Part shown: positions 3,266 to 7,545 of the stretch, in pieces
Numbering within the stretch: the stretch's first letter is position 1
Layout of the letters: each line of letters starts with the position of its first letter
Assembly (NCBI RefSeq): GCF_024746835.1
Contig: NZ_CP080531.1
Span: 4,112,001-4,176,000 of the forward strand
Reading direction: 5' to 3'
DNA: 64,000 bases
Source of the DNA: Mesorhizobium sp. AR02
GTDB taxonomy: Bacteria; Pseudomonadota; Alphaproteobacteria; Rhizobiales; Rhizobiaceae
Notes under the pieces: model-generated
Told to the model about the DNA's origin: nothing
Seen by the model: only the letters and a program-made list of their open reading frames with translations
Database searches by the model: none
Program-made: the position numbers and the translations under genes

Positions 3266-4702
3266 TCAGCCGATGGCTTCCAGCGGCCGGTTCGCAGTCG
3301 ACGATGCCCGCAAGGCGGCGAAACAGCCGAGGATGCCGAGCGGCACGAAGGCGAGGAACAGCCAGCTCGCGACATTGGCCGCGGCGTCGTGGTTCAGCCC
3401 CTGCGAGAAACCGCTGGCATTGGCGACGATGCCGGCGAGGGCCGCGCCCACGGCATAGCCGATGCGCTGCATGGTCGGCACCGCGGCTGAGGCGATGGTC
3501 TGTTCGTCATCCGGTGCGGAGGCGACGATGACGCGGGTCAGGAACGGCCAGGCAATGCCGAAGCCGCCGCCCTGCAACAGGGCGCAGACCAGGATCAGCG
3601 GAATGGAACCCAGCGGTATCGTGTAGGCAAAGCCGGCAATGCCCGCCGCGATCATCAGCGCGCCGGCGACAATGATCAGCCGCTCGCGTTGCGGCGGTGC
3701 GTTGGCGACGAGGATCGACAGGATCGACCAGGCGATCGATTCGGCGGCGATGATGTAGCCGGTGGTCAAGAGCGGAATGTCGTGCAGGCTGGTCAAAAGC
3801 AGCGGTCCATAGACGCCGAAGGAGCAGGTCGCGACGGAAAAGGCCGCGACCATGGTCATGCCGGCGCCGACCGGCGTGCGCCACGAGAACAGCCGCGACG
3901 GGAAAAGCCGCGAGCGCGGCTTCAGCGCGTCGATGGCGAAGAACAGCGCCAGGCCGGCCAGACCCAGCACGATCAGCAGCGAGGAGCGCAGCACGGCGAT
4001 GTCGACGCCGGCCGAGGCGATCAGCACCACGGCGACGGCAAGGCAGCCAAGGGCGGCGAACGGGAAGGGCGGCACCTTGCCGGCGCTTGGGCTGGGTCGC
4101 GTCGCCTCCGGCGTGTTGAGCACGAGGAAGCTTGCCAGTGCCATGGCGGTGCCGCCGAGGGTGAAGACGCCGAAGGCCCAGCGCCACGACAGAAGTTCGG
4201 TCATGATCGCGCCCAGCAACGGGCCGCTGAACGCCGCGACGCCCCAGATCGCCGACATGATGCCGAAAAGCTGCGGCCAGATGGCGCGCGAAAACAGCCG
4301 CTCGACCGAGACGAAGGCCAGCGACACCAGCGCGCCGCCGCCCAGCCCCTCGATCAGGCGCCCGGCCAGGAACAATTGCATGGAAGGCGAGGTGGCGCAG
4401 ATCAGCGCCCCGGCCGCGTAGAGCAGGGCCGCGACCACCATATTGGTGCGCAAGGCCACATAGCTCACCAGCCGTCCGGCAGCAGCGCCGGCGACGATGG
4501 CGCCGAGCTCGTAGATCGCCAGCGACCAGCCGACGAGCTGCACGCCCGCCAGTTCGCCGACCATGGCCGGCATGACGGTCGCCACCATCGTCTCATTGGT
4601 GGCGTGCAGCAGGATGCCGAGGCTGATGAAGCAGAAACGCGCCAGGTCGCCGCTCGCCCACAAAGCGCGCCAGTCGACCCTGTTTGTGCTGATTTCAGTC
4701 AT
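3266..4702 (-). CDS. MFS transporter, drug-efflux type
   Basis: Polytopic inner-membrane transporter of 478 residues in the size range of 14-helix DHA2 (EmrB/QacA-like) proton-coupled exporters. Hydrophobic segments fill the whole length after a short N-terminal leader, and MVATVMPAMVGEL near the start resembles the helix-1 region of multidrug MFS proteins. The frame is open upstream to 4837, but the ATG at 4702 (MTEIS) follows a GGGG-rich stretch and gives the usual family N-terminus, so it was chosen. It converges with kdpE with a 25-bp gap. The substrate cannot be read from the sequence; drug or metabolite export is only the family prior. Confidence 0.8.
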   Translation of the reverse strand: MTEISTNRVDWRALWASGDLARFCFISLGILLHATNETMVATVMPAMVGELAGVQLVGWSLAIYELGAIVAGAAAGRLVSYVALRTNMVVAALLYAAGALICATSPSMQLFLAGRLIEGLGGGALVSLAFVSVERLFSRAIWPQLFGIMSAIWGVAAFSGPLLGAIMTELLSWRWAFGVFTLGGTAMALASFLVLNTPEATRPSPSAGKVPPFPFAALGCLAVAVVLIASAGVDIAVLRSSLLIVLGLAGLALFFAIDALKPRSRLFPSRLFSWRTPVGAGMTMVAAFSVATCSFGVYGPLLLTSLHDIPLLTTGYIIAAESIAWSILSILVANAPPQRERLIIVAGALMIAAGIAGFAYTIPLGSIPLILVCALLQGGGFGIAWPFLTRVIVASAPDDEQTIASAAVPTMQRIGYAVGAALAGIVANASGFSQGLNHDAAANVASWLFLAFVPLGILGCFAALRASSTANRPLEAIG

Positions 4703-4907
4703 GTCCACCCCGCCCCCTGCATATCTCAATGCCGGCGCATGACACCAGAAGCCAGCAAGGGTTTCCGGCAGGACCATGCGCATTGACAACGCCGCATCCA
4801 GGCGCTGCTCAGTCGGGGTGGGTTTGTAAGACCTCAACCACGGTTGAGCTCAAGCGGTTCATTTCGGTGGACCATCGCAACGTTCGAGATTGGCCGAAGC
4901 CTCTCAA

Positions 4908-5087
4908 CTTCGTCATCCCTGAGCGGAGCAGGAGCGAAGCTCCGTCGCGGAGACCCTGGGATCCATTCCGTGACCTTGGCCGAAGGGCGCAGCGGAGCAG
5001 AATTCTGCACCGTAGCAGCGTTCTGACGTCGCGGCATGGATCCTGGGGTCTGCGCCGCGTCGCTTCGCTCCTTGCTACCCCCAGGAT
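4908..5087. repeat. Rhizobial-type intergenic palindrome, interrupted by the IS110 element
   Basis: Long imperfect palindrome. The left arm starts CTTCGTCATC (4908-4917). The centre pairs GGATCCATTCCGTGAC with GTCGCGGCATGGATCC at two mismatches. A side hairpin has arms ATCCTGGGG (5040-5048) and CCCCAGGAT (5079-5087). The missing right terminus, GATGACGAAG, the exact complement of the left terminus, lies at 6239-6248 beyond the insertion. Without the insertion the repeat would be about 187 bp. Similar intergenic mosaic elements are frequent in rhizobial genomes. The rest of 4703-4907 holds the upstream region of the MFS gene and no convincing gene. Confidence 0.75.
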
Positions 5088-5111
5088 TGTTTGAGCAGGA
5101 TTGGGTAGTGT

Positions 5112-5280
5112 GGCGGCCGGGACTGCGGCCCATCACAACCGGCAGTCCCGGCGGCAGGCGACCGTCCCTGGGATCGGGCAACACCCGACGTCATCATGGT
5201 CCCTGCCGTCTTTGTCCGCCATCGCTTGGAGAGTTGATTGGCCGCTGGCTTGCGCCACGCCCGCAAACAATCCGAAGCCT
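5112..5280 (+). ncRNA. Candidate bridge RNA of the IS110 element
   Basis: The left-end non-coding region folds by eye into three hairpins. A 5' stem-loop has an 11-bp stem, 5116-5126 with 5142-5152. A target-binding hairpin is closed by GGCAGG/CCTGCC (5153-5158, 5202-5207). A donor-binding hairpin is closed by GCTT/AAGC (5224-5227, 5075 bases inside the element at 5275-5278). The target loop carries CCCTGGGAT (5166-5174), matching the left target CCCCAGGAT with two wobble-compatible changes, and CGTCATC (5189-5195), complementary to the right target GATGACG. The donor loop carries AGAGTTGAT (5230-5238), identical to the right element end, and CAAACAATCC (5264-5273), complementary to the left end GGATTGTTTG. 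This is the guide arrangement known for IS621. RNA ends are estimates. Confidence 0.8.
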
Positions 5281-5298
5281 TAGAAGGATACCACCAGC

Positions 5299-6240
5299 AT
5301 GGCCTTCTTGCATCAACAACCGAGCCTGTGCCTCGGCCTCGATATCGCCAAGGACACCATCACCGCCGCCGACGGCACCACCACCCAAGTCATCGACAAC
5401 CAGCGACGCACGATCCGCGCCTTCCTCAAGAGCCACAAACAGGCCGATCTCGTGGTCTGCGAACCGACCGGTGGCCATGAGAGCCTGCTGCTCGAAGAGT
5501 GCCTGCGCGCCGGCATCGCCTGCCATCGCGCCGACACGCTCAAGGTCAAGAGCTTCATCCGCTCCTACGGCACGCACGGTAAGAGCGATGCCATCGATGC
5601 CGCCATGTTGAGAGCCTACGGTCGCGAACGCTGGGAAAAGCTGACCCTTTGGCAAGCCCCGGACCCCGACGAGACCCGCTTGCGCGCCCTGGTGCGCCGC
5701 CGCCAGGAACTCATCGCCATCAAGATCGCAGAGAAGAACCGCGCCAAGGCACCTGGTGGCCGCGAGCTCGCTGCCTCCTTCGAGGCCGTGATCAAAGTCG
5801 TCGAGCGTCAGATCCAAGCCATCGATGCAGCCATGCGCGAGCTGATCGCCGGTAGCAGCGCCCTCAAGCATCGAGCCGCCATCTGCACGGCCATGGACAG
5901 TCTCGGCCCGATCGTGACCGCCAAGCTGCTGGCCATCTTGCCCGAGCTCGGCACCATGACACGCCGAAAGGCTGCAGCCCTTGCAGGGCTCGCGCCTCAT
6001 CCAAACGACAGCGGACAAAAGCAAGGCTACCGCAAAATCCGCGGCGGACGACCGGAAATCAGGAGCATCCTCTACATGCCCGCATTGCACGCCGCTGCCG
6101 GAAGGGGCGAGTTCGCCACCTTCTACAAACGCCTCATCACCAACGGCAAAAAGCCAATGGTGGCCATCGCTGCAGTCATGCGAAAAATCGTCGTCACCCT
6201 AAACGCCAGGCTCAGAGACGCCACCATTCCTCAGAGTTGA
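5299..6240 (+). CDS. IS110-family transposase (DEDD recombinase)
   Basis: Transposase of 313 residues with the RuvC-like N-terminal domain and C-terminal Tnp domain of IS110 proteins. Candidate catalytic residues are D15 (GLDIAKD), E55 (CEPTGGHE), D97 and D100 (GKSDAID). The C-terminal domain keeps the conserved serine S238 in APHPNDSGQ. The length is slightly short for the family (about 310-400) but no break is visible. AAGGA about 10 bases upstream supports the ATG. The stop codon TGA (6238-6240) lies at the right junction, so it is completed by the GAT core shared with the target. The protein should recombine element and target using the RNA encoded just upstream. Confidence 0.93.
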   Translation: MAFLHQQPSLCLGLDIAKDTITAADGTTTQVIDNQRRTIRAFLKSHKQADLVVCEPTGGHESLLLEECLRAGIACHRADTLKVKSFIRSYGTHGKSDAIDAAMLRAYGRERWEKLTLWQAPDPDETRLRALVRRRQELIAIKIAEKNRAKAPGGRELAASFEAVIKVVERQIQAIDAAMRELIAGSSALKHRAAICTAMDSLGPIVTAKLLAILPELGTMTRRKAAALAGLAPHPNDSGQKQGYRKIRGGRPEIRSILYMPALHAAAGRGEFATFYKRLITNGKKPMVAIAAVMRKIVVTLNARLRDATIPQS

Positions 6241-6273
6241 TGACGAAGCGGTAAGCGACTGCCCTCGACGCGA

Positions 6274-6759
6274 TCAGTTCTCGGTGCTTCGCAGCTGGAA
6301 CTGGCTGACGCCGATGGCGAGATTGATGCCGGTCTGCGTCTGCAGGCTGAGCGGCTGGAGTGTGAAGGCCTGCGAGGAGCCGCCGACCAGCAGATTGGCG
6401 CCGGCGCCAACGGCTGCCGTCACCTCGGCGCTGGCACCGATATAGTCGCCGGCCAGCGCACCGGGCGCGTAGATGTTCTTCAGCGGCGTCAGCACCAGCC
6501 ATCGCATCACCGCCTGCTTTGTCGTGCCGATGTCGAGGCCGTATTTGTTGACGGCGCCGAAATAGGCTTCCGGCGCGAAGCTCTTGTCGGTCGGCGTGAA
6601 GGTGCAGCTCAGATCCTTGGTCGAGCCGAAGATGAAGCCGGTGCCACCTGATATGGCGCATTCAAGCGTGCCGAGTTCTATGCCGCGGTCCTGCGCTTGC
6701 GCCTGTGGCGCGCCAAGCACGATTGCAATCACGGCAGCAGCGATGGCTGTCCTCGGCAT
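6274..6759 (-). CDS. DUF992 secreted protein (copy 1)
   Basis: Protein of 161 residues with a signal peptide (cleavage near AQA-QDRG, residue 22) followed by one DUF992 domain, a family found mainly in rhizobia and relatives with no known function. The domain starts with GTLECAISGGTGFI and ends with a repeated-glycine strand (GAGANLLVGGSSQAF). Two cysteines (about 34 and 52) could form a periplasmic disulfide. It is a paralogue of the next gene (6846-7322), with shared blocks GTL-C-I-GGT, YFGAV/YTGVI and ANLLVGG. Its 3' end is only 34 bp from the IS110 stop, so its own terminator region was displaced by the insertion. Confidence 0.8.
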   Translation of the reverse strand: MPRTAIAAAVIAIVLGAPQAQAQDRGIELGTLECAISGGTGFIFGSTKDLSCTFTPTDKSFAPEAYFGAVNKYGLDIGTTKQAVMRWLVLTPLKNIYAPGALAGDYIGASAEVTAAVGAGANLLVGGSSQAFTLQPLSLQTQTGINLAIGVSQFQLRSTEN

Positions 6760-6769
6760 GGCGGTCCCC

Positions 6770-6813
6770 TCAAAAACAAACGGCGCGGAACCATCCTATC
6801 CGGTTCCGCGCCG
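6770..6813 (-). terminator. Intrinsic terminator of DUF992 copy 2
   Basis: A perfect 12-bp stem, CGGCGCGGAACC (6781-6792) with GGTTCCGCGCCG (6802-6813), has a 9-base loop. On the minus strand it is followed by TTTGTTTTTG (6780-6771). It lies directly 3' of the DUF992 gene at 6846-7322 and upstream of the copy at 6274-6759, so the two copies are probably expressed separately or with strong attenuation. Confidence 0.85.
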
Positions 6814-6845
6814 CAGGGTAGAGAGGAGCGCATGGCTCCATGCAA

Positions 6846-7322
6846 TCACTTGAGCGAGTGGATCAGCTCAAGCGAGGTCACGGCCACGGCGAGATTGACG
6901 CCGGTCTGCGCCTGGACGCTGAGCGGCTCCAGCATGAAGGCGCTGTCGAAGCCGCCGACCAGCAGATTGGCGCCGCCGCCAGTGACGACGCTCGCCTCGG
7001 CGTTGACGCCATAATAGCTGCCGGCAAGGTCACCCGCATCGCGGTCGCGGGTCGCGGCAAAAACCGCCCAGACGAGCTGGCCCTGATGCGTCTGGCCGAG
7101 ATCGACACCGATCTTGGAGATGACGCCGGTGTAAATCTCCGACGGTCCATGGTGATAGGGACGGAAGACGCAGGACACGCCCTTGTTGGAAGCGACGATA
7201 TAGGCGGTGCCACCATCGATGGTGCAGTCGAGCGTGCCGAGCTGCAGCTTGCCGGCGCTGGCGGGGGCGGCAGCGAATACGGCCGTTGCAAGGGCAGCGG
7301 CGCAGACGAGTTTCTTGATCAT
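6846..7322 (-). CDS. DUF992 secreted protein (copy 2)
   Basis: Paralogue of the neighbouring DUF992 gene, 158 residues, with a clear signal peptide (MIKKLVCAAALAT..., cleavage after APASA near residue 23). The mature part carries the same cysteine pair and the GGGANLLVGG strand. The frame is open six codons further upstream, but the ATG at 7322 has AAAGGA seven bases before it and gives a canonical signal peptide, so it was chosen. Periplasmic or cell-surface location is likely; function is unknown. Upstream (7323-7545) there is no gene; the region holds two GGGTTAACG direct repeats 20 bp apart (7407, 7427) and a 9-bp hairpin (7469-7490). Confidence 0.85.
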   Translation of the reverse strand: MIKKLVCAAALATAVFAAAPASAGKLQLGTLDCTIDGGTAYIVASNKGVSCVFRPYHHGPSEIYTGVISKIGVDLGQTHQGQLVWAVFAATRDRDAGDLAGSYYGVNAEASVVTGGGANLLVGGFDSAFMLEPLSVQAQTGVNLAVAVTSLELIHSLK

Positions 7323-7545
7323 GGCAGGGTCCTTTCGCAAATCGCTTGGAAATAACGGCTTGAGTGGTCAGACCGTTCCGTCGAAAACTTGGCGTGAACA
7401 AGGCAAGGGTTAACGGCTTGCTGCAGGGGTTAACGCGCGGTTGCCGGATTGGCGGCGATCTTCGGCGTTGCGTGTCCTTTTGGACACGCAAACAACCGGC
7501 GGTGCTTAGCCGGATATGCCGAAGCCCGGATCTGCCAAAGCTATG

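Follow-up and report, generated by a model that had tools for sequence, protein, structure and literature searches.

An IS110-family element of Mesorhizobium sp. AR02 with an IS621-type bridge RNA layout at the end of a palindromic repeat

The locus, its recombinase and relatives

The stretch of DNA considered here, further called the window, covers 64,000 nucleotides of Mesorhizobium sp. AR02 (contig NZ_CP080531.1, positions 4,112,001 to 4,176,000), whose genome of 8.9 Mb is assembled in four contigs. It contains an IS110-family element of 1.16 kb (5086-6241), flanked by an MFS transporter gene on one side and two DUF992 genes on the other. The two DUF992 genes adjoin each other directly next to the insertion (6274-7340) and are perhaps the result of a tandem duplication. 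The features of the element and its flanks are collected in Table 1.

The recombinase has the domain composition of the IS110 group, with a DEDD (RuvC-like) domain at the N-terminus and a Tnp domain (Transposase_20) at the C-terminus, and its stop codon (TGA, 6238-6240) falls within the left donor and the first core base. By sequence it is homologous to two solved relatives, the recombinases of IS621 (E 1.4e-27) and of ISCro4 (PDB 9t56; E 4.2e-26), the likeness to the latter being one of recombinase sequence alone. Positions matching D11, E60, D102 and S241 are retained in 18 of 18 relatives, and D105 in 17 of 18. Of these, E60, D102, D105 and S241 were placed by alignment to IS621 with an offset of two residues, and the D11 position is the one which we take to correspond by its motif. 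Locus L009 carries N at the D105 position, in a reading frame that is otherwise open and with matching guides. As is usual for the IS110 group, the element has a long non-coding region upstream of the tnp gene and lacks subterminal inverted repeats, none of 8 or more matching bases with no more than one mismatch being present between the outer 60 bp.

The scan of genome contigs for relatives yielded 19 loci. Matches were found in 9 of 146 genomes of the genus (E 1e-60) and in 8 of 397 genomes of the order (E 1e-50), the host genome being included in both sets, and no relative was present in the plasmid collection at E 1e-60. The recombinase identity among the relatives ranges from about 47 to 100%. 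The loop pattern described below is present in the distinct loci except L006, which is a remnant, and L048; in L010, the left end and the 5′ stem are lost.

Table 1. Positions of the element's features and flanking sequences in the window
Feature	Positions	Strand	Basis or comment
Left part of interrupted palindromic repeat, opens CTTCGTCATCC	4908..5087		continues past the element to 6248, ATGACGAAG
Left target (LT) CCCCAGG, positions 1-7	5079..5085	+	sequence; comparison of guide and target pairing
Left copy of proposed AT core, positions 8-9	5086..5087	+	suggested by IS621 numbering (available text of PMC11208158)
Right donor (RD) TGTTTG, left element end	5088..5093	+	sequence
-10-like TAGTGT	5106..5111	+	17 nt after junction-spanning TTGATT in the excised circle
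5′ stem-loop of predicted bridge RNA, arms 5116-5126 and 5142-5152	5116..5152	+	element-by-element pairing check
Target-binding loop, closing stem GGCAGG/CCTGCC (5153-5158/5202-5207), inner hairpin 5175-5178/5184-5187	5153..5207	+	fold, alignment, sequence
Left target guide (LTG) CCCUGGGAU	5166..5174	+	pairs positions 1-9, wobbles at 4 and 5
Right target guide (RTG) CGUCAU, positions 13-8	5189..5194	+	sequence, comparison
Proposed handshake guide CA	5195..5196	+	C fits G7 of donor and target; A fits donor T6 only
Donor-binding loop, closing stem GCTTGG/CCGAAGC (5224-5229/5272-5278)	5224..5278	+	sequence; absent from predicted folds
Left donor guide (LDG) AGAGUUGAU	5230..5238	+	sequence, comparison
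Right donor guide (RDG) CAAACAAU	5264..5271	+	covariation with left element end
Proposed handshake guide CC	5272..5273	+	fits target G6 and G7; by analogy
IS110 recombinase, 313 aa	5299..6240	+	Pfam domains DEDD_Tnp_IS110, Transposase_20
Left donor (LD) AGAGTTG, right element end	6233..6239	+	sequence
Right copy of proposed AT core	6240..6241	+	sequence
Right target (RT) GACG, then AAG of repeat end	6242..6245	+	sequence

Guide segments and the predicted RNA

A preliminary description of this DNA placed four short guide segments in the non-coding left end of the element, opposite both targets and both element ends. The positions of these segments turned out to be exact: CCCTGGGAT lies at 5166-5174, CGTCATC at 5189-5195, AGAGTTGAT at 5230-5238 and again at 6233-6241, CAAACAATCC at 5264-5273, GGATTGTTTG at 5084-5093 and the left-target stretch CCCCAGGAT at 5079-5087. 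The proposed pairing held as well, as an ordered search for four guides with the partners LT, RT, LD and RD paired 34 of 34 positions, G-U pairs being allowed. In 300 dinucleotide shuffles of the non-coding region, with G-U again scored as paired, the mean was 27.2 paired positions and the maximum 30. The guides follow the order LTG, RTG, LDG, RDG in two loops, which is the IS621-like organisation claimed earlier, and the 5′ and 3′ sides of the loops pair with the target and donor strands. The bounds of the segments can be refined, C5195 and C5272-5273, present at the given coordinates, falling on the positions proposed for handshake guides. In the available text on the IS621 structure (PMC11208158), position 7 is engaged by handshake guides located in the other loop. 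By analogy, the bases following the RTG (C, A) may fit G7 and T6 of the donor, and those following the RDG (C, C) may fit G7 and G6 of the target.

The single-sequence fold of the RNA is modestly stable (z -1.94), with 9 of 200 shuffles being equally or more stable. It reproduces the target-loop stem of the preliminary description, together with the 5′ hairpin, but not the donor loop as drawn there. The donor-loop stem is missing from both the single-sequence and the alignment-based predictions, and neither the single-sequence fold nor RNAalifold on the MAFFT alignment draws both loops; in the predicted folds, the element end pairs in cis with the right donor guide. Because the MAFFT alignment offsets the 5′ stem by one base between lineages, this stem was examined element by element. 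With G-T allowed, each of the 14 elements forms 11-15 pairs here, the arm sequences differing among lineages, and the stem is thus a conserved secondary structure with compensated changes in all 14. The target-loop stem is mostly invariant and therefore says little about conservation. The search of Rfam (E up to 1, positions 4000-7500) gave no match for the RNA, the one hit being a microRNA model that scored far under its gathering threshold.

The expression of such an RNA may depend on the excision of the element. By analogy with IS621, the formation of the excision circle would bring TTGATT, which spans the circle junction (6237-6241 plus 5088), and TAGTGT together at a spacing of 17 nt and in this way create a promoter; the predicted junction reads AGAGTTGATTGTTTG. 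Both boxes match the consensus weakly (4/6 to TTGACA and 3/6 to TATAAT). The trinucleotide TAA or TAG is located 21 nt from GAT in 9 and 22 nt in 2 of the 11 elements viewed. In the linear sequence, a simple scan for sigma-70 sites gave none between 4900 and 6400, in keeping with a promoter that would form only in the circle. The resulting transcript, composed of the 5′ stem-loop, the target loop and the donor loop, would bind the DEDD/serine recombinase, again as in IS621. The donor loop would then pair with AGAGTTG-AT-TGTTTG and the target loop with CCNNNGG-AT-GACG, so that the insertion target read by the guides would be CCCCAGGATGACG, and the recombinase would exchange the strands at the AT core. 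The G and U at guide positions 4-5 may let one guide read several variants of the repeat end by wobble pairing. Wobbles in the LTG have a precedent, since the LTG duplex of the IS621 structure includes a non-canonical G-T pair, according to the available text (PMC11208158). Transcription and activity of the bridge RNA are expected from the same analogy.

Copies at the repeat ends and the choice of sites

The element targets one end of a palindromic repeat dispersed in Mesorhizobium genomes, and its two flanks are the two sides of that end; this identity was absent from the preliminary description and is added here. The sequence GGATGACGAAG occurs 93 times in the genome, versus 4 times for the reversed control, and often in inverted pairs about 45 or 170-200 bp apart. 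In the window, the repeat occupies 4908-5087 and 6240-6248, with inverted CTTCGTCATCC ends, and nine Mesorhizobium genomes hold between 23 and 183 ends of the CCNNNGGATGACGA form each.

The host genome (G000) contains five copies of the element, all inserted at the same repeat end and in the same register. In all five, the left flank ends with CCNNNGGAT and the right flank begins with GATGACGA. The uninterrupted CCCCAGGATGACGA is found four further times in the genome, and therefore gives the appearance of the empty site. One copy, L004, has a one-base frameshift in the recombinase (L004:2119-2121) and intact guides. A right-end remnant of 28 bp, fused to the other arm of the repeat (L006:1501-1528; G000:C2:3434318-3434345), is probably the scar of a deleted sixth copy.

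The condition of these copies bears on the question whether the locus still functions. That the bridge RNA locus is now inactive, and that its copies are fossils spread earlier or by recombination between repeats, would agree with the frameshift in one of the five genome copies, with the loss seen in the L006 remnant and with the altered D105 position of L009. This reading is unlikely, as three copies in the genome, each at a site of its own, have the same guides and encode intact recombinases that are 100% identical, and five copies of the CCTAAGGAC type occupy five sites in another Mesorhizobium genome, G047.

The choice of sites among the repeat ends is not random. In 18 insertions from 9 genomes, 7 mismatches (wobbles free) were counted between guide and site, where random repeat ends from the same genomes would give 21.9 (P about 1e-5). 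The 14 distinct combinations of genome, guide and site gave 7 mismatches against 16.5 expected (P 0.0016), and the removal of ends with GT at positions 4-5 gave 7 against 15.2 (P 0.003). The background for this test consisted of the first 100 of 120 sites in G047 and the first 100 of 183 in G100; L020 and L025, which have no background list, were left out, and the site of L008 is itself off the background pattern (GACGC, not GACGA). In several genomes, CCCGT outnumbers every other end (29 of 78 in G000 and 40 among the 100 G047 ends listed), and 0 of the 18 insertions are located at such ends (P 0.0013). At L033, the used end pairs less well than random repeat ends do on average. When the used end was compared with the opposite end of the same repeat, it paired better at 10, equally at 1 and worse at 0 of the 11 loci testable among 20 (sign test 0.001), the remaining 9 having no recognisable opposite end. 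If L014 and L025, where the opposite end is degenerate, are set aside, the used end was better in 8 cases, tied in 1 and worse in none.

These results describe a preference, and the extent to which it belongs to each guide is a separate matter. Permutation of the guides among the 11 Mesorhizobium element lineages gave P 0.02 with free wobbles, 0.09 with wobbles at half cost and 0.25 under strict pairing. A single guide for all Mesorhizobium sites does as well as the actual guides if wobbles are free (8 vs 8), and the single guide CCCTA beats them when wobbles carry a cost (14.5 vs 15.5, and 16 vs 23). The signal within the genus is therefore mostly a common preference joined with avoidance, and the strong test is the one between lineages. 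The tuning of individual guides to their own sites within Mesorhizobium is weakly supported at best.

Core assignment and covariation between lineages

The preliminary description took GAT as the core. GAT is common to both junctions, but it is better read as G7 followed by an AT core when the numbering of IS621 is applied. According to the available text on IS621 (PMC11208158), its LTG spans positions 1-9, of which 8-9 are the core; T9 hardly varies and is contacted by G63, and IS621 is reported to work with other first core bases too. On this numbering, LT would be CCCCAGG, LD would be AGAGTTG and the core AT, with G7 common to donor and target. A CT core of the IS621 type was not observed, all 31 tabulated insertions for which there is a right flank having GAT at the right junction. 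Since IS621 reportedly accepts other first core bases, such a non-CT core is compatible with membership in the IS110 group. In the alignment to IS621 (two-residue offset), G63 is retained, A61 is replaced by P and N84 by D in 18 of 18 relatives, which form one clade, and P and D at these positions would fit a changed first core base.

The alternative of a three-base GAT core, with the exchange possible anywhere within the shared triplet, has in its favour that GAT stands at both junctions in the 31 insertions with a known right flank (the left GAT having been a search key), and since the triplet is shared, the crossover cannot be placed from sequence alone. It is nevertheless improbable: the IS621 numbering divides the 9-nt LTG into 7+2, T9 is near-invariant among the IS621 relatives in the available text, and its contact G63 is kept in 18 of 18 recombinases here. 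L057 has GGTTGTT instead of GATTGTT at its left junction and GAT at the right one, which would fit a variable first core base and may equally be a mutation.

As the preliminary description required of its reading, the insertion sites of the other copies are compatible with their guides, some with one or two mismatches. With G-U counted as paired, the LTG pairs 225 of 245 positions over 35 insertions, of which 18 are fully paired, 14 have one mismatch and 3 (L017, L024 and L059) have two; the RTG pairs 182 of 186 positions in the 31 insertions with a known right flank. The tabulation skipped L026-L028, L030, L032 and L034-L044, which are second fetches of loci already included, and the pairing count omitted L045, L046, L050 and L053 (the same loci as L015, L017, L016 and L021), L010, L021 and L057 (no GATTGTT left end found), the remnant L006, and L048. 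The last of these was missed by the search pattern and was read by hand, giving 5/7 for the LTG, 6/6 for the RTG and a broken RDG/LE pair. The left GAT and parts of the LDG, RDG and RTG (including GAGTTGA) served as search keys, and hence their constancy is not independent evidence.

Between lineages, target guides and targets change together. For 10 LTG haplotypes at positions 1-5, the cognate pairing is 44.4 of 50, versus 26.9 after permutation, and 0 of 20,000 permutations reached the cognate value, the haplotypes being not fully independent by descent. The RTG and RT change jointly: compared with the reference target GATGACG, L020 has CCTCATC/GATGAGG, and L015-L017 have TGTCATC/GATGACA. 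Four tabulated copies of G288 mismatch RT position 13, and in L025 the core base of the RTG is altered. Of the expected agreement between element ends and donor guides, one RDG/LE position stood (alignment columns 8 and 213), being U-A in 12 of 20 and C-G in 8 of 20, but other donor changes are uncompensated. L048 breaks the RDG/LE pair, with the left end GATTGTTAG and a guide for GATTGTTTG, and both G288 and L048 have T at donor position 1 of the right end with the guide still A. The LDG shows no covariation, its other positions being constant, partly by construction of the search pattern. The covariation thus concerns the target guides between lineages and one donor position, and is weak within Mesorhizobium.

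A rival reading, in which the recognition of repeat end and element ends lies with the recombinase protein and the RNA-like matches are remnants of same-family sequence or chance, is highly improbable: it would suit the much-alike targets of the tabulated Mesorhizobium copies, which one consensus explains about equally well, and the donor positions without covariation in G288 and L048, but the ordered four-guide match exceeds all 300 shuffles, target guides and targets change jointly between lineages down to the single-base RTG changes of L020 and L015-L017, and the RDG changes with the left end in 8 of 20.

The element is almost certainly an IS110-group insertion sequence with the bridge RNA layout of the IS621 type, i.e., four guides, their loops, a repeat-end target and a probable AT core, and the interpretation given in the preliminary description is correct in substance. 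It resembles IS621 of E. coli, as described in the available text of PMC11208160 and PMC11208158 (both Nature 2024), in the predicted upstream non-coding RNA with a 5′ stem-loop, target loop and donor loop, in the pairing of the LTG and LDG with the bottom strand and of the RTG and RDG with the top strand, and in the REP-type target; the junction promoter of IS621 may have a counterpart here. It differs in the proposed AT core instead of CT, in the G7 common to donor and target, and in the guides, host and repeat, and its activity is expected by analogy. The seekRNA of IS1111/IS110, in the available text of PMC11187229, is likewise a non-coding RNA that matches both target strands and is naturally redirected by guide changes; IS1111 has subterminal inverted repeats and the reverse guide order, and no such repeats were found in the present element. 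ISRm19 of Sinorhizobium meliloti, also an IS110 element of a rhizobium located in palindromic repeats, is similar by description: the available text of PMC1525189, from 2006 and thus before the bridge RNA papers of 2024, places 4 of 4 copies in REPs. The bridge RNA principle, large-scale covariation and REP targeting by IS110 elements are already published, as far as the available texts go (PMC11208160, PMC11208158, PMC11187229, PMC1525189), and the element is a well-supported addition to the known systems; no title among the matches listed from the open-access literature was recognised as describing it. Its value is that a predicted bridge RNA of rhizobia can be read here in full, that related recombinases offer a series of naturally changed guides, that the core is probably AT, with changes at two residues located at the core in IS621, and that the target is a repeat of the host. 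Together, the elements form a naturally occurring panel on which the tolerance of wobbles, the choice of core and the pairing of handshake guides could be studied, in an enzyme family that attracts interest as a tool.

Some relatives differ from IS621 in a mismatch of the LTG with the core. In nine copies (L008, L011, two in L012, L013, L014, L018, L029 and L031), the LTG ends with GGAC and thus mismatches core T9, and the core remains AT in all nine. The mismatch did not stop the spread, because the CCTAAGGAC element has its five copies in G047. In the recombinase tree, L031 (CCCTGGGAC) groups with the CCTTAGGAC and CCTAAGGAC elements (support 89/96 and 94/97), and therefore the LTG has changed at positions 3-5 and retained its C at position 9. 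A possible, though doubtful, wider reading is an AT-core IS110 subfamily in which the LTG is degenerate by design, its U/G at positions 4-5 reading the variants of the host repeat by wobble, the guide drifts with the host repeat population while the recombinase changes little, and LTG pairing at core T9 is dispensable. At L012, the two CCTAAGGAC copies lie within 6 kb of each other, in opposite orientation and at different repeat ends.
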